NCBI RefSeq assembly: GCF_003991225.1
Contig: NZ_JTFC01000026.1
Coordinates: 62,001 to 126,000 of the forward strand
Length of the DNA: 64,000 bases
Direction: 5' to 3'
DNA from: Candidatus Kurthia intestinigallinarum
Lineage (GTDB): Bacteria > Bacillota > Bacilli > Bacillales_A > Planococcaceae
Part shown: piece after piece, positions 2,144 to 54,577 of the stretch
Layout: every line of letters starts with the position of its first letter
Position numbering within the stretch: the first letter of the stretch is position 1
Translations under genes and position numbers: made by a program
The notes under the pieces: model-generated
The model's database searches: none
Told to the model about the DNA's origin: nothing
The model's input: the letters and a program-made list of their open reading frames with translations, nothing else

Positions 2144-3628
2144 CTAATGAATGGCCAGCTTAGCCGTTACTTTTGATGAAGAAAGGCCGCTTGTGTCATA
2201 GACAACCACGCTCGCTTTATACGTTTTTTTCGTTGCGAGCTTTTTCGTTGTAAAGCTAGAGGTTGTCGACTTCCCTACATACTGACCGTCTAAATAAATT
2301 TTAGCATACGCATAGTCCGGTGTGTTCTTTACATCCCAAGAAATACGCGCTTTTTTGTTTGTAGCAACGCGAAATTGAATATTTGTTGCCTGTGCAGGAG
2401 GTGTCGTATCGACTTTCGTAGCAAAAGTCGCTTCAACAGGCTCTGCCGCATCCCCTTGCGCATTTAATGCACGCACAGATACTAACTGCACCTCATCCGA
2501 CGTTAAATTTTTCAATGTGTACGACGTTTTTTTCGTCCGGGCGATTTCCTCGTCATGCAGCGAGATAATAAGTGAATCCCATGTATCCTCTGCCGATTTC
2601 GTAAATTTTAAAATCGCTGTATGATCCGTAATACCGCTTACCTTAAAGGATGACGGTGCAAGAGAGCTTTGTGGTTCGACATATGTATAATGCGGCATAC
2701 CATAGCCAAATGTCGTATCATAGCCTTCCACACCTAAATCTTTTGAGCTGGCAATCAATTTTTCTTTTAGTTGCTGCGGCGTACTATACGGATACTGCTC
2801 TTTTAATAATGCTACCATCCCTGTAATAAATGGTGTCGCAAAAGAGGTCCCACTTGCCGTATAAAGCTCGCCGTTGACCGCAATGGTTGGAATATTTTCC
2901 CCAGGTGCCACAAAATCGATGCCGCTTCCATAGTTTGCAAAGGTACTACGTTTATTTTTTGCTGAAATTGACGTCACTGCAATGACTTCTTTATAGCGCG
3001 CTGGATAAGTGACGCTTTTCATTTTATTATTCCCTGCAGATGCCACAACGACGATATTTTTCGCATAGGCTTTTTTTATGACGCGATGAAGAGCTGGAAT
3101 ATCACTTTGAAGCCCCGATGAAATTGAAATAATATCTGCCTTGTCCGAAATGGCTTGGTCTACCGCTTCAATTAATTCTTTAACATCGCCGTCCTCAGTG
3201 CCATCTTTATATTTATACGATGCAATGGTTACCTTCGGGGCAACACTGAAAATCGAAAAATCTTCATTGTCTTTAATAGGCTTTGCGCCAATAATGCCCG
3301 CAACGCCCGTACCATGCCCCTCTTCAAATCGGTCGAGCACATCGCCTTCATTGATTTTTTTCGTATAAGGATTGTCAGTCGTAAAACTATAGCGCTCCTT
3401 AACATTTGATAATAGTTTACTGTTTTTATTAACCCCTGTATCGATAATCGCCACACGAATACCTTTACCTGAATAACCATTGGCCCACGCCACCGGAATT
3501 GTTAATTTCTTTAGATGTTTCGTTGGTACTTCTTCTGTATAAAGCGGTTGTGCCTGCGCAACCGCTCCGAATGAAGGACCAGTTAAAACCGCACAGATTG
3601 CTGCTATCGAAATGATTCGTCGTCGCAT
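2144..3628 (-). CDS. secreted S8 (subtilisin-like) serine protease with C-terminal FN3-type domains
   Basis: This is an exported endopeptidase of the subtilase family, 494 residues from the ATG at 3628; AGGAGGG lies six bases upstream, so the longer upstream reading frame is not used. Residues 1-27 form a signal peptide ending near AQAQ. The catalytic triad is visible as Asp63 (AIIDTG), His105 (GHGTGVAG) and Ser262 (GTSFATP), with the oxyanion Asn200 (ASAGNN). No long inhibitory propeptide is present; the catalytic domain begins almost directly after the signal. Residues from about 330 to 494 look like two fibronectin type III-like modules, perhaps for wall or substrate binding. A short gap links it to the winged-helix gene downstream. 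Confidence 0.9.
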   Translation of the reverse strand: MRRRIISIAAICAVLTGPSFGAVAQAQPLYTEEVPTKHLKKLTIPVAWANGYSGKGIRVAIIDTGVNKNSKLLSNVKERYSFTTDNPYTKKINEGDVLDRFEEGHGTGVAGIIGAKPIKDNEDFSIFSVAPKVTIASYKYKDGTEDGDVKELIEAVDQAISDKADIISISSGLQSDIPALHRVIKKAYAKNIVVVASAGNNKMKSVTYPARYKEVIAVTSISAKNKRSTFANYGSGIDFVAPGENIPTIAVNGELYTASGTSFATPFITGMVALLKEQYPYSTPQQLKEKLIASSKDLGVEGYDTTFGYGMPHYTYVEPQSSLAPSSFKVSGITDHTAILKFTKSAEDTWDSLIISLHDEEIARTKKTSYTLKNLTSDEVQLVSVRALNAQGDAAEPVEATFATKVDTTPPAQATNIQFRVATNKKARISWDVKNTPDYAYAKIYLDGQYVGKSTTSSFTTKKLATKKTYKASVVVYDTSGLSSSKVTAKLAIH

Positions 3629-3668
3629 TGCCATCCCTCCTATTAGCCTTATTATACGAAATTTACAC

Positions 3669-3701
3669 AAAAAAAGAATCTGCTAGCGTGCAGATTCTTT
3701 C
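3669..3701 (-). terminator. terminator of the cobalamin/ECF operon
   Basis: On the minus strand an AAAGAATCTGC/GCAGATTCTTT hairpin is followed by seven Ts. The 5' arm overlaps the last codons of the ECF S-component gene. Confidence 0.8.
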
Positions 3702-4396
3702 ACTTTATTGCCAATTAGACCATATTTTATTTGAATACGCTCTAACTTTTCACCAATAGGTTTCGTTAACAGTAATAAAAAGACAACATTTGATACAGCG
3801 TAAGCAATTGTAAATGGTAGTGCCGTCCCAGCTGCTTGTAAATAACGCGTCCACGAAAATGCGCCATCATACGACATAACCGTCCAAATATCCATAATGA
3901 ATGAGAACAATACCCCGGCGATAATGCCGTATAAAATAAGACCGATTTTTGTCTCCATTAAAGAAGTTTTACCGAGCCAACCAGCAATGTAACCAATGAT
4001 GCCCCATGTAAACATTTGAAAAGGTGTCCACGGCCCTTGCCCAAATAGCATATTTGATGCGATGGCTGACACAGCCCCGGTTAAAAAGCCCGCTTCTGGC
4101 CCCATTTTAAAACCGGTAATCGCCGTAATCGCCGTCACCGGTTTAAACGCAGGTACCCACGCAAAAGCAACGCGCCCTGCGACGGAAATGGCTGACATGA
4201 CCGCGATAATCATAATTTCGCGCGCATGTGGCTTGCGGCGTTCAAATTGTAAGAAAAAGGGCACGCAAGCTAATAGCACGACGATCATCGAAATAATATT
4301 GTATTTATTATCTTTTAACAATGTTGCGCCGACTATTAGTAATAGTGGAATGGCGATAAAAATAATACTAAGTGAAACGAGTTGTTTAGCTTTCAA
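3683..4396 (-). CDS. ECF transporter S component, probably for cobalamin
   Basis: This is an integral membrane substrate-binding (S) subunit of an energy-coupling factor importer, 237 residues. I chose the TTG at 4396, which lies eight bases after GGAGGG and overlaps the stop of the ATPase gene. Roughly six hydrophobic segments are visible; the motif AFKPVTAITAITGFKMGPEAGFLTGAVSA resembles the central helices of vitamin S components, and ALP..IAYAVSNVVF precedes the last helix. The whole operon follows a cobalamin riboswitch, so the substrate is inferred to be cobalamin or a corrinoid. Characterised B12-specific ECF S components (CbrT type) support that such proteins exist. The exact subfamily cannot be fixed by eye. 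Confidence 0.8.
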   Translation of the reverse strand: MKAKQLVSLSIIFIAIPLLLIVGATLLKDNKYNIISMIVVLLACVPFFLQFERRKPHAREIMIIAVMSAISVAGRVAFAWVPAFKPVTAITAITGFKMGPEAGFLTGAVSAIASNMLFGQGPWTPFQMFTWGIIGYIAGWLGKTSLMETKIGLILYGIIAGVLFSFIMDIWTVMSYDGAFSWTRYLQAAGTALPFTIAYAVSNVVFLLLLTKPIGEKLERIQIKYGLIGNKVKESAR

Positions 4397-6059
4397 CGAG
4401 CACACCCTCCTCATAATATTGAATGAGTTGCGATGGCGTAATCGCGTGCTCAACGACGTGACGGCTCATACGGTGCGTAGCGGTCGTATAAAAATGATTG
4501 CCGCTATAAAAGGCGACGCGGTCATCTACCGACACGATATTACCATCGAAAAATAAGGCTGCGCGATCCGCAAACTCCGCTGAAAACTCGACATCATGAG
4601 TCACGATGAAAATCGTTAAGCCTTGCGCTTTTAACTGCTGTAAAATTTCGGCGAAAACGCGTTTTGAGGCGCCATCCATACCCTTCGTTGGCTCATCTAA
4701 CAATAAAATTTTTGGCTCGTTTAACAGCACTTTCGCGAGCGCGACCTTTTGCTGCTCACCACCACTTAAATCAAAAGGATGATGCTCAAGCACATGTTCA
4801 ATTCCGAGCTGTGCGACCATCGCGGCGATTTTAGCTTGTTTTTGTGCCTCCGGTATGGTCCAAATTGACGCTAAATCTTCAAATTCCTTGCGTACGGTTT
4901 TTGCGACAAAAATCGTTTGTGGATTTTGTGGTAGCACCCCAATAAACTGACGATATAACTCTTTTTGGCGATATTTTTTAAGCACACGCCCTTCAAGTAA
5001 CACCTGTCCACGATAAAGCGGCATTAAGCCAGCCATCACTTGCATTGCCGTTGATTTGCCCGAACCGTTTCCACCAAGCAACGTGAAAATTTCCCCACGC
5101 TCTAGCGTCAAATCAAATTCTTTTAAAATATCATGGCCTTTTGCTTCGTAGCGGAACCAGCCTTTTTTCACTTCTAAAATGGGGTCATGCGATACAGCTG
5201 AGTTTGGCATACGCGCCGTTCCTTGTACGAAATGCTTTGTTAGCCATGCGCGTCCTTCACGAATCGTTAGCGGAGCGTCATCTTGTAGCTGCAAGGCATG
5301 ATGAATACGCAATGGCGTCGGTAAACCGAGTAGCATCGGGTGCTCGCGGTCAATTGCTTGTAGCTCACTCGCAACGGCTTTCGGTGTACCGTTGGCGATT
5401 ATTTCACCTTGTTCAAGCATGACGACGCGGTCTGCAAGTGGATATACTTCTTCTAGGCGATGCTCGACTAATAAAATCGTTAAGCCGAGCTCTTTATTTA
5501 ATTTTTGCAGCGTTTGAATAAATTCCGTTGCCGCAATCGGGTCTAACTGCGATGTCGGTTCATCTAAAATTAAAACCTCTGGCTGCATGACCATAACACT
5601 AGCCAAATTAAGTAATTGTTTTTGACCACCCGATAAATGCATCGTATCCGCATGAAATAGCCCTTGGATACCAAAGAAATTCGCCATTTCCGCAACGCGT
5701 CGTCGAATCGTACTCGGCTCGACCCCTAAATTTTCGAGCCCAAATGCGAGCTCATGCCACACTTTATCGGTAACAAGTTGATTTTCTGGATTTTGTAGCA
5801 CATAGCCAATTTTCTCAGCTCGCTCACGTTCGGTCAGCGAATCGAGTGCTTGATTGTTTAAGAAAATGTCCCCGCTTCGTTCGCCATGGGGTGCAAGTTC
5901 TTGTTTTAATTGTTTTAATAATGTTGTTTTCCCACAGCCTGAAACCCCACAAAAAACGACAAATTCACCTTGTTCAATTGCTAAATTCAGCTGTTTTAAT
6001 GCAGGTCGTTTGGCGAGTGGATACGTGAAATCGAAATCTTTGAAGTTAATGAACGCCAT
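4386..6059 (-). CDS. ECF transporter fused ATPase (A1-A2 in one chain)
   Basis: This 557-residue cytoplasmic protein carries two ABC ATPase domains in tandem and powers the importer. Domain 1 has Walker A GVSGCGKTT (38-46), the LSGGQ signature (142-146) and Walker B VLILDEP. Domain 2 has GGNGSGKST (329-337), LSGGE (431-435) and ILLLDEP. Most ECF systems use two separate EcfA proteins; fused forms occur in dedicated, single-substrate (group I) systems, consistent with the S and T genes lying beside it. Its start, after AGGAGGTGCGCA, lies 64 bases inside the end of the T-component gene, suggesting translational coupling. Confidence 0.93.
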   Translation of the reverse strand: MAFINFKDFDFTYPLAKRPALKQLNLAIEQGEFVVFCGVSGCGKTTLLKQLKQELAPHGERSGDIFLNNQALDSLTERERAEKIGYVLQNPENQLVTDKVWHELAFGLENLGVEPSTIRRRVAEMANFFGIQGLFHADTMHLSGGQKQLLNLASVMVMQPEVLILDEPTSQLDPIAATEFIQTLQKLNKELGLTILLVEHRLEEVYPLADRVVMLEQGEIIANGTPKAVASELQAIDREHPMLLGLPTPLRIHHALQLQDDAPLTIREGRAWLTKHFVQGTARMPNSAVSHDPILEVKKGWFRYEAKGHDILKEFDLTLERGEIFTLLGGNGSGKSTAMQVMAGLMPLYRGQVLLEGRVLKKYRQKELYRQFIGVLPQNPQTIFVAKTVRKEFEDLASIWTIPEAQKQAKIAAMVAQLGIEHVLEHHPFDLSGGEQQKVALAKVLLNEPKILLLDEPTKGMDGASKRVFAEILQQLKAQGLTIFIVTHDVEFSAEFADRAALFFDGNIVSVDDRVAFYSGNHFYTTATHRMSRHVVEHAITPSQLIQYYEEGVLVES

Positions 6060-6913
6060 TTGCGCACCTCCTGTAATTCAAGTAATAATGGTAGTAACGC
6101 TAAGACGGCGTAGCTACTATAAACGATGAGCTGTGGCCACTGCCATGAGAGCCCACTAAACGTTGGGTAAAAATAAAAATCATTCCAATCGTGCCAAGAA
6201 GCAAACAGTTGGATAGCAAAAAATGAGGCAATTAATGCAAGTAGCGAGCCATCGCGTTTCGTAAAAATAAAAATCGAAAATGTTGAACGCCCTGAAAGCC
6301 CATAGCCACACGCCTTCATCGAATCTGCACTTTCAATGCCATTTTCAAGTGCCCATGATACTAAAATTGATAATACGCGCATCGCACTTTTAATGCGTTG
6401 CCACATGTTCCCAACACTTGGGTCCATACCAATCGCTTTTTGGGCATTCATAATTAAATGAAGTTGTTGCTTGAAACGCGGAATTAGGCGCATCGTCACC
6501 GAAATTAACAATGCAACTGCCGGTGAGATTTTACCGAATAAATAAATGAATTTATCGGTCGTCATGAGCTTGCTGAACGCATTAAACCAAAATAGTACCG
6601 CCAGTAGCATACAACTCATCGCCAAGCCATAAATGATTGCTTCAAGTGTAATTGGCTGGTAGTTGACGTAAAACAGCACGATTTCCCCGTCATGACTAAT
6701 CAATGGATTGATGAGCGCTGCAATTAGCGCAAATGGCACAAACCATTTTAAAGACGCCGTAAATGCGCGTGCATCAATGGCAACATTTAGTAAAATGGCA
6801 CAAATGAGTGAGATAATTAGTAACACAGGATGCATATAAAACATCGTCAATCCCGTAATGACCGCAAAATAACTAAATAATACGATTGGATGTAATGTAT
6901 TTAAACTATACAT
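5996..6913 (-). CDS. ECF transporter T component (transmembrane coupling protein)
   Basis: This is the membrane subunit that couples ATP hydrolysis to S-component toppling, 305 residues from ATG 6913 (GTAGGTGGCGCT just before it). It shows several hydrophobic helices in the N-terminal half and a cytoplasmic coupling region with ALENGIESADSMKACGYG at about residues 195-215. This corresponds to the EcfT coupling motif (usually ending in A-x-G or ARG-like); here a Cys sits at the usual Arg position. The gene lies between the DUF4430 lipoprotein gene and the ATPase gene, overlapping the latter. Confidence 0.88.
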   Translation of the reverse strand: MYSLNTLHPIVLFSYFAVITGLTMFYMHPVLLIISLICAILLNVAIDARAFTASLKWFVPFALIAALINPLISHDGEIVLFYVNYQPITLEAIIYGLAMSCMLLAVLFWFNAFSKLMTTDKFIYLFGKISPAVALLISVTMRLIPRFKQQLHLIMNAQKAIGMDPSVGNMWQRIKSAMRVLSILVSWALENGIESADSMKACGYGLSGRSTFSIFIFTKRDGSLLALIASFFAIQLFASWHDWNDFYFYPTFSGLSWQWPQLIVYSSYAVLALLPLLLELQEVRKWRSLTSKISISRIHSPNDLH

Positions 6914-6921
6914 AGCGCCAC

Positions 6922-7917
6922 CTACTGATCTGCAAGGCCAATATCGCGCCCTAAATTCGTCGTATAATGCCACGTAATTTTATCGCCATCTTTTATATCA
7001 TATGCTGATGCCCCGACACCAGGTGCTTTACCGTTAACGGCAAACATCCAGCCAGATAGGCTACCCGCTTGCTTTTCATAAATATGATTGATGCCTTCTA
7101 CATAAACAGAACCATAGCCTGATTCCCCTTCGCCTTCATATTCGAAGTGGATGCCATGTTTTTGCAAGGCTTTTCGCGTTGCCGTCCAGGCACTATCTCC
7201 TTTTTCAATCGTGTACGTGCCTGCTTTTAAAATAATGCCGTTTGACGGAACATATTTTGTGCTTTGCAGTGCTTCAGGTAAGCGATTGAAATGCTCCTGC
7301 TGCAGCAATGTATCCACGCGTACTGACACCGTCACCGTTTCTTTTTTATCTTCTTTTTGTGGTGTTGTCGGCTTCGGTTTCGCGGTATTATCAGGCGTCG
7401 GTTGCTTCACAGGTGCAGTTGTTGCAGGCTTTTGATGTTCGCTTGTTGTTTTATCCGCTGACGTGGGCTGTTTATTAGTAGTATCGGCCGCTGAAGTAGT
7501 AGATTTTTCATCCTGTGCAGTGGCTTCTTTTGGCGTTGCCGTTTTTTCTTCTGCCGCTGGTTTCGCGTCGTTCGTTTGCTGCTCCTCTGTTTTTGCTGGC
7601 GCTGCAGGTGTAGCTACCTTATCTGTATCTTCTATAATCTTTTCTTTATCAACCTGCTTATCGATAGCTTCCTTGTCATCCGGCTTTATTTCTGCTTTAT
7701 CCTTTCGTTCTTGTGCATCCTCGCTCGATTTCTGTTTGTTTGCAGCCTCTACGGGTTCTTGTTGTGCCGAACTCGTTTCATTTACTGTCGATGATGCAGT
7801 TGCAGCTTGCTCACTCTCTAAGCGCGCTTTTTCTTTTTCATATTCATCAACGGATTGCACGTTGCACGCACTAAGTAGCATCGAAGCGGCTAACATTCCT
7901 CCTAATAAGCGTTTCAT
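6922..7917 (-). CDS. DUF4430 (transcobalamin beta-domain-like) lipoprotein
   Basis: This 331-residue lipoprotein has a signal peptide with lipobox LLSAC; Cys18 should be lipidated. Residues 20-195 form a long low-complexity linker rich in Ala, Glu, Lys, Thr and Pro, which could span the cell wall. Residues about 200-325 form a DUF4430-type domain with SGWMFAVNGKAPGVG and KDGDKITWHYT, the module that corresponds to the C-terminal beta domain of vertebrate transcobalamin and intrinsic factor. It lies in the B12-riboswitch operon, after the barrel protein and before the ECF genes, so a role in capturing corrinoids at the cell surface is inferred. AAGGAGG precedes the ATG. Confidence 0.85.
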   Translation of the reverse strand: MKRLLGGMLAASMLLSACNVQSVDEYEKEKARLESEQAATASSTVNETSSAQQEPVEAANKQKSSEDAQERKDKAEIKPDDKEAIDKQVDKEKIIEDTDKVATPAAPAKTEEQQTNDAKPAAEEKTATPKEATAQDEKSTTSAADTTNKQPTSADKTTSEHQKPATTAPVKQPTPDNTAKPKPTTPQKEDKKETVTVSVRVDTLLQQEHFNRLPEALQSTKYVPSNGIILKAGTYTIEKGDSAWTATRKALQKHGIHFEYEGEGESGYGSVYVEGINHIYEKQAGSLSGWMFAVNGKAPGVGASAYDIKDGDKITWHYTTNLGRDIGLADQ

Positions 7918-7942
7918 CTAAAAATCCTCCTTATACGTCAAA

Positions 7943-7972
7943 GAGGGCGCTGGAAATTCCAGCCCCCTACAG
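7943..7972 (-). other. intergenic hairpin within the B12 operon
   Basis: On the minus strand GGGCTGGAA and TTCCAGCGCCC form a stem between the barrel-protein and lipoprotein genes. The sequence after it is not a T-run, so it is more likely an mRNA-stability or partial-termination element that lowers distal expression than a full terminator. Confidence 0.5.
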
Positions 7973-7984
7973 TGACAAAACTCA

Positions 7985-9535
7985 TTATTTTACACGTACT
8001 TTCAGCGTTTTTGATTTGTTGCCAGCCGTATCTTTCACCATTACTAACAATGCTTTTTTCGTTTGTTGCTTTGGAATTTTTACGCTGAATTTGCCTGTTG
8101 ATGATGCTTTCGTGCGATATTTTTTGCCGTTTACTTGAACGATTACTGTTGCATCTTTTTCAGCTTTACCAGTCACATATTTCGTACCTGCTTTTACCGT
8201 ATTCACTTTCGCCACAGCCGGTGCCGTTTTATCCGCTACTGTTACCGTTTTAACTTTTGAGGTATTGCCCGCAGCGTCTGTTACCGTCACGACTAATTTA
8301 GTGCCAGCTTTTTGCTTCGCAATCGCTAAATCGTAGCGTCCTGTGCCATCTGCTAATGTCGTTGCAAGCACTTTTTTACTAGATTTCACTGTCACCGTCG
8401 CATATTTCTCAGCTGTGCCTTTTAGCATTGTTGATTTATCCGACACTGCAGAAATCTTTGCGGCTACCGGTGCAGTTGTATCATAGTTAAATTTTGTTGC
8501 GTCCACTGCTGATAAATCATAGTATGGTGTTTGTTGTGCATATGCGGTTAGTGCTTGTGCAGCTTGTACGTTTGAGATTTGGTTCACTGTACCTTGTGCT
8601 GAGTTTTTAAACGCATGCTGTGCTTTATCATAACTTGTTAATAAGTTTGATACCGTCCATGCACCATTCGCTAACACAAACTGCTCGTGTTGCTGTGGAT
8701 TAATGCCAAGTGCTAATTGCGCAATAATAAGCTGTGAAACAGATTCTGGACTATCTCCTTTTGCCCATTCACTATAGAAGCCGGCCTGGTCGCTTAATTG
8801 TGACTGCATAAATGCCAAGCCTTTTGTGATGACCTTATCTACAGCTGGTTGTGTTTTATAGGGCGCAAGTGCTGTGATCGCCATTGCCGTTGAATCGACA
8901 TCGGCACCCGTTGCCCATTCACTTGATGAGCCCCATGAGAAGCCACCGTCTGAATAAGCTTTAGTTACAAGGAAGTCTACGATTGCTTCACGTGAGAAAT
9001 CCGCTTCATTCGCTTTAGGCACCGCATAATCGTTGGCATCAAGCGCTGTTAATAGCCAGTAGTAATCCATTTCTAATAGCTCAAATGCCGTATCTACATC
9101 GCCTTTTGCTTTTTGTTGTTGCGCATAAGCGACCATTTTTTCGATTAAGTTAACGCCGCCTACATTCGTTGCATCCTTGCCGATGGCTGTCACCGCAAGC
9201 ACAGTTGTTGCGTATTTACTAACAGCAGAAAAGCTTGCAAAATTATTTTTTGCTTCCGCTTCTACGGCTTGATAGTATGTATCGTAATAATTTTTCGCTA
9301 CAGGGAAATTGGCTTTCGCTAATGTCAGTACCGAGCTCCCTAAATCGGTTGTTGGTGTTTTTGCCATCGCGTACGTAAATGCCGACGCATCATTTAATGC
9401 TGCCGTATATGATACCGCCGATGCTGTATTGCTAGCGATTGGTGTGACTTCTTGTGCTTGTGCACTCCAAGCTGGCACAGCGCTTAATGTAAGTGCTGCC
9501 ACAACTGAAGATGCTACCCATTTGTTTTTGAACAT
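7985..9535 (-). CDS. secreted alpha/alpha-barrel (terpenoid cyclase/transcobalamin-like) protein with Ig-like domains
   Basis: This 516-residue exported protein has a signal peptide cleaved near residue 27 (SAQAQ). Residues about 45-350 are helical with repeats such as GGFSWGSSSEWATG (198-210), DVDSTAMAITAL (212-223) and SPESVSQLIIAQLALG, the pattern of the prenyltransferase/squalene-cyclase alpha-alpha toroid. That fold is also the N-terminal domain of intrinsic factor and transcobalamin. Residues 354-435 and 436-516 are two bacterial Ig-like repeats (TAEKYATVTV and KAEKDATVIV mark each). It is the first gene after the cobalamin riboswitch and is followed by the DUF4430 lipoprotein. I infer that the two proteins together form a surface corrinoid receptor. 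It lacks a lipobox or LPXTG anchor. Confidence 0.8.
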   Translation of the reverse strand: MFKNKWVASSVVAALTLSAVPAWSAQAQEVTPIASNTASAVSYTAALNDASAFTYAMAKTPTTDLGSSVLTLAKANFPVAKNYYDTYYQAVEAEAKNNFASFSAVSKYATTVLAVTAIGKDATNVGGVNLIEKMVAYAQQQKAKGDVDTAFELLEMDYYWLLTALDANDYAVPKANEADFSREAIVDFLVTKAYSDGGFSWGSSSEWATGADVDSTAMAITALAPYKTQPAVDKVITKGLAFMQSQLSDQAGFYSEWAKGDSPESVSQLIIAQLALGINPQQHEQFVLANGAWTVSNLLTSYDKAQHAFKNSAQGTVNQISNVQAAQALTAYAQQTPYYDLSAVDATKFNYDTTAPVAAKISAVSDKSTMLKGTAEKYATVTVKSSKKVLATTLADGTGRYDLAIAKQKAGTKLVVTVTDAAGNTSKVKTVTVADKTAPAVAKVNTVKAGTKYVTGKAEKDATVIVQVNGKKYRTKASSTGKFSVKIPKQQTKKALLVMVKDTAGNKSKTLKVRVK

Positions 9536-9542
9536 AAAAAAA

Positions 9543-9589
9543 TCCTCCCCTGATTTTTAGAATTTTCACGCAACAATTCTTAGGGAGGA
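9543..9589 (-). promoter_or_regulatory. hairpin sequestering the ribosome binding site, with terminator-like T-run
   Basis: On the minus strand TCCTCCC (9583-9589) pairs with the Shine-Dalgarno GGGAGGA (9543-9549), and an inner stem AGAATT/AATTCT extends it. Seven Ts follow directly before the ATG of the barrel-protein gene. The element could therefore act both as a terminator and as a translation block, and is probably the expression platform of the cobalamin riboswitch. Confidence 0.7.
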
Positions 9590-9652
9590 CAACTATATAT
9601 AATAAGCCAAAAAAGCTTGCAAAACAGCACTTCCCCTCGAAGTTTGTTAACG

Positions 9653-9816
9653 ATGTAGAAGCAGGTCTCCTGGCTCGTGGTCACTTTACTTTAGCTGCTT
9701 CTCATTACTTTATATCAAGTAACAATGCATCGTGCTAGTTCATCACACATACAGTAGCGGGGCTGCGTTGGCTTTTCACCAATCTTCCCTATTATCCCTC
9801 ATGGGCACTTCTACAT
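9653..9816 (-). promoter_or_regulatory. cobalamin riboswitch aptamer
   Basis: The minus strand carries the class-defining blocks in order: AAGTGCC, AGGGAAGATTGGTGAAAAGCC, GCAGCCCCGCTACTGT and the B12 box GAGCCAGGAGACCTGC (about 9661-9678). The P1 helix closes perfectly: ATGTAGAAG (9808-9816) with CTTCTACAT (9653-9661). It precedes the barrel protein, DUF4430 lipoprotein and ECF genes, and should reduce their expression when adenosylcobalamin or another cobalamin is plentiful. Confidence 0.95.
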
Positions 9817-9890
9817 ATTCAATTGTTCTATAGTATTCCATAAAAACGTTCGGATGTAAACGCTTTTTTTCTAGAGAAAATAAATAAAAT

Positions 9891-54261: not shown

Positions 54262-54545
54262 GAAAAAAAGTTTTCTCATGCCACGCAAAAATACATTGCT
54301 CCTCTTTGCGTAGGGATGAAAAAACTTTCATGGTACCACCCTGCTTCGCTATAAAGTCACCTTTATAGCCTTATGAATAGACGAATCTATTCTTTTAATA
54401 ACGAGTGCGAGCACCCGGAACGACCTAGTAGCATGAGGCGTTTAGTCATTCACTCCGAGGGGATGTCAGAAATAGCTGGCTACTGATTCACACCGGCCAT
54501 CAGCTCTCTGGAAAGTCCATATCTATTTCCTTTTACCTCTTCAAC
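54262..54545 (-). promoter_or_regulatory. T-box riboswitch between ilvD and ilvB, isoleucine specifier
   Basis: On the minus strand AGGGTGGTACCATG (54329-54342) is the T-box core; a terminator follows at 54262-54330 (CATCCC.TACGCAAA with TTTGCGTGG.ATG, then AAACTTTTTTT). The specifier region GACATCCCCTCGGAGTG aligns with the trpE leader's GAATGGGCCTCAGAGTG, giving ATC (Ile) at 54462-54464. No good promoter is seen between the ilvD stop and the leader, so it may be read as part of the ilvD transcript. Confidence 0.9.
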
Positions 54546-54577
54546 GCTTTAAATATTGAATTTTTAGAATTTTTTAA

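Follow-up and report, generated by a model that had tools for sequence, protein, structure and literature searches.

How does a Gram-positive bacterium capture vitamin B12 (cobalamin) before it reaches the importer in the membrane? Such capture outside the membrane seems to be poorly known; the surface binders of Bacteroides have already been characterised. The question was raised by a set of minus-strand genes at positions 3683–9816 of a 64,000-nucleotide stretch of the genome of Candidatus Kurthia intestinigallinarum (contig NZ_JTFC01000026.1, positions 62,001 to 126,000), hereafter called the window. The set holds every part that an initial annotation of this DNA had claimed. Its order from 5′ to 3′ is a cobalamin riboswitch, the gene of an alpha/alpha-toroid protein, the gene of a DUF4430 lipoprotein, the genes of an energy-coupling factor (ECF) transporter (EcfT, a fused EcfA1A2 and the substrate-binding S component) and a terminator (Table 1). 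Judged by the spacing, the shared strand and the terminator, the riboswitch and the five genes would be read as a single transcript.

In our reading, the operon serves B12-repressed uptake of corrinoids: the toroid and the DUF4430 protein form a two-chain carrier, and the DUF4430 protein hands the ligand over to the S component. We give this reading a probability of roughly two in three (0.68). Its parts differ in strength. Capture and import of corrinoids as the function of the operon is well supported, and a clamp of the two proteins on one cobalamin is likely from the analyses below. We infer the identity of the ligand, the closure on a single molecule and the direction of the hand-over. 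The operon is real, well conserved and, overall, functionally convincing; it is less surprising than had been claimed.

Table 1. Features of the operon and its flanks, listed in the direction of transcription
Feature	Position	Strand	Basis and remarks
Promoter-like hexamers TTTACA-17-AATACT	9832–9860	minus	consensus scan, 9/12 matches; directly upstream of the riboswitch
Cobalamin riboswitch aptamer	9643–9827	minus	RF00174, 103 bits, E 1.2e-24
Leader hairpin, candidate expression platform	9537–9590	minus	Shine-Dalgarno GGGGAGGA in 3′ arm, then seven U
Secreted alpha/alpha-toroid protein, 516 aa	7985–9535	minus	signal-peptide-like N-terminus; toroid ~40–350; immunoglobulin (Ig)-like repeats 355–516
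Intergenic hairpin between toroid and DUF4430 genes	7918–7984	minus	RNA fold; without clear U run
DUF4430 lipoprotein, 331 aa	6922–7917	minus	lipobox LSAC18; 177-residue linker; beta-grasp ~196–331
EcfT, CbiQ family	5996–6913	minus	PF02361 E 2.8e-9; start MYSLNTLHP (6913), longer open reading frame start 6973
EcfA1A2, 557 aa	4386–6059	minus	two ABC ATPase domains in one open reading frame
EcfS, CbrT-like membrane substrate-binding component	3683 to about 4420	minus	PF07155 over cut-off
Intrinsic terminator, operon end	3672–3701	minus	12-pair stem, then U run

Conservation of the operon and its riboswitch

Two samples were used. The first was a survey of 101 genomes of the host's family, in which the toroid matched at E ≤ 1.3e-56 in 14 genomes, one of them (G028) with the gene in pieces. 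A DUF4430 open reading frame (ORF) on the same strand lies about 1 kb downstream in all 14. The T, AA and S genes follow in 13 loci; in the fourteenth, the contig breaks off behind the DUF4430 gene. These 13 sets were read from the ORFs by eye, with ten confirmed by hidden Markov models (HMMs) and the window by Pfam. The second, wider sample came from a scan of GTDB genomes that gave 153 confirmed relatives; the best 80 of these yielded 79 distinct loci, so the sample leans to close relatives. Twelve of its loci (L098–L108 and L115) are identical with loci of the family survey, and two others, L138 and L139, come from a single metagenome-assembled genome (MAG) as nearly identical contigs. The titles all appear to name Bacillota. 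The nearest named loci are those of Kurthia huakuii (87% identity of the toroid) and K. massiliensis (62%).

The split into two proteins had been presented as an unusual arrangement. This view was rejected: a separate DUF4430-only ORF follows the toroid ORF within 2 kb in 66 of the 79 loci, so splitting is the rule in this sample. Among these split loci, T was found in 62, A in 59 and S in 58, and in 55 of the 62 loci with a T gene the DUF4430 ORF lies ≤300 nt 5′ of the EcfT start. A toroid ORF with an extra DUF4430 copy occurred in 14 of the 66 split loci. The 13 loci without the pair include several short or truncated contigs; the others show different orders or fusions.

The riboswitch match in the window covers the full covariance model (positions 1–189 of 189), at a score far above the gathering score of 31.5 bits. 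The nine-pair P1 that had been noticed was also seen, as nine contiguous Watson–Crick pairs (9816–9808 with 9661–9653, read by eye). In the family of the host, all 14 split loci have a riboswitch upstream, and so do seven of seven fused-type or SLH-type loci picked from the family survey. With a sequence profile, it was found on the same strand in 42 of the 66 split loci of the wider sample. The 12 shared loci also supplied seeds of this profile; excluding them, the count was 30 of 54. Over all 79 loci there were 68 matches at E < 1e-5, of which 63 shared the strand of the operon and 5 did not (50 of 54 on the operon strand when the shared loci were excluded). Composition-shuffled loci gave no matches at E up to 1. 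Riboswitch control is thus recurrent and is not seen at every locus of the sample. The co-occurrence of toroid, DUF4430 and ECF parts, which the initial annotation had proposed as a check, was found to be conserved, and the 14 family loci, all with the DUF4430 ORF and the riboswitch, show that the grouping is not a matter of chance.

Two side observations concern the composition of these loci. In loci of Lysinibacillus, Solibacillus and Bacillus ndiopicus (L115:3972–9878, L154:3686–9820, L169:8573–12412 and L172:5856–9821), the pair is preceded by large secreted proteins that combine a toroid with at least one DUF4430 domain, giving several capture modules per importer. In a Kurthia senegalensis-type genome (L087:8011–10879, L108:10001–12869), the toroid and the DUF4430 ORFs are each in pieces, and the riboswitch and ECF genes were found despite this.

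Importer and ligand

The complete ECF set was confirmed in its conserved order. In addition to the family matches in Table 1, ABC_tran matched EcfA1A2 in two stretches, and TIGR04520 reached 362 bits against a cut-off of 315. The start of EcfT was placed at 6913 and not at 6973 because of the ORFs of relatives. The longest ORF of EcfS starts at 4453; the true start is probably near 4399–4420.

That the importer is of the B12 type also stood. The best solved match of a profile of the S component (25 rows) was CbrT (6fnp_A, E 8.1e-19, positions 63–233 of 236), and the next was RibU at E 3.8e-5. CbrT is a proven ECF B12 transporter of Lactobacillus delbrueckii, with PDB entry 6FNP being ECF-CbrT, and binds cobalamin with a dissociation constant (Kd) of 9 nM and cobinamide with a Kd of 36 nM; an E. 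coli strain without btuF, btuC and metE served in its study (PMC5997447). Elsewhere, CbrUVT has been used as a predicted B12 or corrinoid ECF transporter (PMC6593275, PMC8123684). Given the CbrT-like S component, which weighs most, the riboswitch and the carrier folds described below, a corrinoid would be by far the likeliest cargo.

The host apparently makes B12 itself, judged from its gene content. Models for CbiL, CbiH, CbiF, CbiD, CbiJ, CbiE, CbiT, CbiA/CobB, CbiP/CobQ and CobT scored over cut-off; matches to CbiG, CbiC and the adenosyltransferase were below it, and CobU, CobS and CbiB were recognised by eye only. The genome also has MetH, methylmalonyl-CoA mutase and IcmF. It holds ten cobalamin riboswitches over cut-off and one DUF4430 match. 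Riboswitches lead a metE gene (identified by eye) and a BtuFCD-like set (below cut-offs). If our reading is true, a bacterium that makes its own B12 would nonetheless spend resources on capturing it.

The idea that such scavenging occurs only in auxotrophs was considered and rejected. DUF4430 was found in 33 and CbiD in 32 of the 101 family genomes; 10 genomes had both, where 10.5 would be expected if the two were independent (Fisher p 1.0). Among the DUF4430 carriers, CbiD was present in 9 of 14 genomes of the split type vs 1 of 19 others (p 4e-4, kinship not corrected). These cross-tables were assembled by hand.

The cargo could be a corrinoid precursor or several different cobamides (cobinamide, cobyrinate diamide or forms with other lower ligands) instead of cobalamin. 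We consider this unlikely. The host has cbi/cob genes and therefore could finish precursors, CbrT accepts cobinamide at the affinity given above, and according to a comparative survey it is not settled which vitamers such transporters accept (PMC6593275). However, if cobalamin is one of several vitamers taken up, uptake through a two-chain carrier would fit as well, and the data here suit the different vitamers alike.

One variation of the importer was observed in 24 of the 79 loci (clostridial types and Paenibacillus), where EcfA1A2 and EcfS are fused in one ORF of about 800–1060 aa (e.g. L144:13432–15909 and L155:13499–16240). S components are assumed to diffuse freely, and tying one to its ATPases would restrict this.

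Putative capture proteins and natural fusions

The toroid protein had been described as a secreted alpha/alpha-barrel protein with two Ig-like repeats, and this description was borne out. The AlphaFold2 model of residues 26–354 (alignment of 66 rows) is all-alpha, with a mean predicted local distance difference test (pLDDT) score of 94.2 and a predicted template modelling (pTM) score of 0.92. Pfam identified two Big_6 Ig domains at residues 355–516 (E 1e-31). The toroid itself gave only a sub-threshold Prenyltrans match (17.6 bits vs a cut-off of 26.5). By fold, the proposed likeness to transcobalamin was recovered: the five best PDB matches of the model were transcobalamins (E 7e-5 to 1.7e-4, template modelling (TM) scores 0.55–0.60), with terpene cyclases and farnesyltransferase beta close behind. 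The most conserved residues are 118–127, D214, T216, M218 and Q268. Pfam, which has a eukaryotic cobalamin-binding family (PF01122), gave no such family for the window toroid at E up to 0.1, nor for the 17 aligned toroid rows at 1e-3. By sequence, the window toroid is therefore not a member of the family of animal carriers.

Among the 17 toroid proteins chosen for alignment, 13 carry Ig repeats and 4 carry SLH domains. A C-terminal membrane segment was predicted by hydropathy in 10 of the 66 toroid proteins of split loci. In the window protein, Pfam gave no SLH match, and neither an LPxTG sortase motif nor a C-terminal membrane segment was seen by eye; a scripted search of the counterparts in L098–L107 found neither of the latter two.

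The second protein was correctly recognised as a DUF4430 lipoprotein with a long linker. PF14478 matched at E 6.5e-17 (62.2 bits vs a gathering score of 23.8), all 19 aligned rows have the lipobox Cys18, and the linker between Cys18 and the DUF4430 domain is rich in K, A, T and E. Over 67 rows of the domain, the most conserved residues are S288–W290 and D325.

The two kinds of protein also occur as natural fusions. In an Oscillospiraceae MAG, the ORF L138:9938–11602 (554 aa) joins the two neighbours in one chain, as a toroid, two hydrophobic segments (seen by eye) and DUF4430, and it adjoins S and T genes. A further toroid–DUF4430 fusion, from Lysinibacillus contaminans (L119, 506 aa), was modelled as a single chain from an alignment of 54 rows (A6) and reached a pLDDT of 85.6 and a pTM of 0.80. 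Its 15 best PDB matches were all intrinsic factor, haptocorrin or transcobalamin, with E values of 4e-11 to 2e-9, 456–489 columns over both domains and TM scores by target length of 0.55–0.64. The next match was the isolated beta domain of transcobalamin (5no0, E 1e-4, TM 0.83 by target length), at the same level as terpene cyclases (1e-4). Strands 425–430 and 433–439 come after helix 410–420 in this model. In these models, the toroid of the window and both domains of the homologous fusion adopt the folds of the animal carriers. The DUF4430 domain of the window was aligned to the fusion, in whose model the beta-domain fold was seen.

Coupling of the components and proposed mechanism

Distance matrices of the toroid, DUF4430 and ECF proteins were compared over 52 complete loci. 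The correlation between toroid and DUF4430 was 0.81, and the partial correlation was 0.69 (bootstrap 0.57–0.79). The partial correlation was 0.25 (0.05–0.44) between DUF4430 and S, and −0.12 (−0.32 to 0.04) between toroid and S. These values suggest a chain from the toroid over DUF4430 to the importer. In a strict subset of 35 loci, toroid–DUF4430 was 0.82 and DUF4430–S was 0.24. EcfA and S, which are likewise adjacent, showed a coupling of only 0.19.

The two proteins could also act as a relay and not as a clamp, i.e. as serial corrinoid receptors that each bind B12 alone, without a shared site. Each is a chain of its own, and they are anchored differently (the toroid by Ig or SLH, DUF4430 by a lipid or a membrane segment). 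Extra toroid and DUF4430 copies are present in a number of operons. Moreover, PDB entry 5np4 is, by its title, the isolated human transcobalamin beta domain with cyanocobalamin, so a DUF4430-type domain alone can bind. Against such a relay stand the natural fusions, one of which matches the animal carriers over both domains in its model, and the coupling between toroid and DUF4430. We regard the relay as unlikely, slightly more so than a precursor cargo.

With a two-chain carrier, the operon would work as follows. When adenosylcobalamin is plentiful, the riboswitch would shut the operon off, as expected from its family. When it is scarce, the toroid would be exported, and the DUF4430 lipoprotein would be set on the membrane by its long flexible tether. 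Together, the toroid and the beta-grasp domain would form a two-chain counterpart of transcobalamin and intrinsic factor. This pair would catch a corrinoid, probably with one domain shutting over it on either side. From the lipid-anchored DUF4430 protein, the corrinoid would then pass to the CbrT-like S component, and EcfT-A1A2 would drive it inward using ATP.

Since no membrane, SLH or sortase anchor was seen in the Kurthia toroid, its release was also considered. It would then be a diffusible protein "B12-phore" that picks up cobamides at a distance from the cell. The tethered DUF4430 protein would dock this carrier, complete the binding site and deliver the cargo to the CbrT-like S component. 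We consider this proposal unlikely. If true, this would be a bacterial system of transcobalamin plus receptor, with DUF4430 coupling carrier to importer.

Points against the two-chain carrier

Several observations weigh against the two-chain carrier or loosen its ties to the window. The margin of transcobalamin over terpene cyclases in the toroid fold search is small (7e-5 vs 2.3e-4, TM ~0.58), and the sequence profile of the toroid reaches squalene-hopene cyclases in the PDB (E 4e-15) and not the animal carriers. The sequence profile of DUF4430 found nothing credible in the PDB, and the animal carriers were not reached. The modelled fusion is a Lysinibacillus paralogue and not the Kurthia pair. 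The expected superposition on animal carriers held for both domains of this fusion and for the window toroid alone, but the root-mean-square deviation over both domains of the fusion was 7–12 Å, which therefore means a broadly similar arrangement of the same two domains and not an identical geometry.

The lipid anchor is not general: only 27 of the 66 downstream DUF4430 ORFs have a lipobox, and 58 of 66 have an N-terminal hydrophobic segment. The coupling between toroid and DUF4430 fell to 0.36 [0.15, 0.56] when the Kurthia group was excluded (42 loci), with DUF4430–S at 0.30, and gene adjacency may cause part of it. In the strict subset, the toroid was also coupled to EcfA (0.34, 0.10–0.61), a link not expected from a simple chain. 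At the fused locus L138, the riboswitch match is on the opposite strand only and none is on the strand of the operon. Finally, the B12 synthesis genes of the host and its BtuFCD-like operon put its need for this importer in question.

The cyclase matches by profile and, just behind transcobalamin, by fold, together with Ig repeats that match a biofilm surface protein, would also fit an enzyme or wall-binding adhesin of the terpene-cyclase/glycan-hydrolase toroid type that merely shares the operon, but this is very improbable, as DUF4430 and B12-type ECF genes recur beside the toroid behind a cobalamin riboswitch, the best structural matches are transcobalamins and fusions to DUF4430 exist.

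Comparison with known systems

The general idea is not new, given the account of Burroughs et al. 2007 (PMC1796856). They described bacterial transcobalamin-like beta-grasp domains with toroid fusions, Ig fusions and operons with CbiO/CbiQ, and they proposed that such proteins scavenge B12 and that the animal carriers originated in low-GC Gram-positive bacteria. The present operon shares with their SLBB systems the DUF4430-type beta-grasp domain, alpha/alpha toroids, Ig-like fusions, the surface location and operons with an ABC ATPase and CbiQ. The forms they describe include toroid–SLBB fusions and solo SLBB domains; the window toroid has no SLBB domain of its own. According to the same paper, carriers of such genes are usually without B12 synthesis; the Kurthia host, in contrast, has B12 synthesis genes. 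The word riboswitch is absent from its text. Added here are the link to the riboswitch, the CbrT-type S component, the fold-level tests, one Rosetta-stone fusion and splitting as the rule, as well as a suggestive coupling signal from toroid over DUF4430 to S and the apparent ability of the host to make B12.

Animal intrinsic factor, transcobalamin and haptocorrin likewise combine a toroid with a DUF4430-type beta domain, and they gave the best PDB matches. While the animal carriers are single chains, two genes are used here, one for a lipid-anchored protein with a long linker and one for a protein with Ig-like repeats. ECF-CbrT is alike in its related S component and its ECF module. CbrT uses an ECF module common to other S components (PMC5997447), whereas the present operon has a dedicated T-A1A2-S set and two capture proteins. 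The accessible part of that paper makes no mention of an extracellular capture protein for CbrT. The structure 3u7z from Ruminococcus gnavus, a "putative metal binding protein" by its PDB title, resembles the DUF4430 half of the fusion model (TM 0.76 by target length) but is a small single domain and was labelled as metal binding by its depositors. BtuG and BtuH of Bacteroides are alike by function only, as surface B12 binders placed before a transporter (PMC6143338, PMC8941943); BtuG is a beta-propeller that works with an outer-membrane transporter (PMC6977713).

No experimental study of bacterial capture proteins of this kind was found among the matches listed, which were mostly titles or starts of abstracts and covered few subscription journals. 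The listed literature on Kurthia and cobalamin held nothing on point, and such capture proteins are not mentioned in the accessible part of PMC2667541. In this type of operon, present in many Bacillota, carrier-like capture proteins and a CbrT-like importer come together with a riboswitch as a compact, testable system. It also bears on the proposed bacterial origin of the animal B12 carriers.

Leader, hairpins and neighbouring genes

The promoter match upstream of the riboswitch is weak, as the region has 13 such sites against a mean of 13.4 after shuffling. The leader hairpin had −16.4 kcal/mol in a 78-nt fold, with a z-score of only −1.3 and 23 of 200 shuffles as stable. A similar pairing was seen by eye in some, not all, of the 14 leaders that were folded, so the hairpin is a weak candidate for the expression platform. 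The terminator hairpin closing the S gene (3701–3672) was more distinct (fold z-score −4.8, 0 of 200 shuffles as stable).

In the gap between the toroid and DUF4430 genes, the fold of 7918–7990 had −24.1 kcal/mol (z-score −2.98, 1 of 200 shuffles as stable). The hairpin in this gap might fix the ratio of the toroid to the DUF4430 protein.

Behind the terminator, the minus strand of the window encodes a secreted S8 protease with an FN3 domain (2144–3670) and a PadR regulator (1374–2132). Homologues of both were found in 10 of the 13 split loci L078–L090; the contig of L083 ends too early. Two T-box leaders lie on the minus strand of the window, at 1125–1332 (122 bits) and 54309–54553 (97.6 bits).

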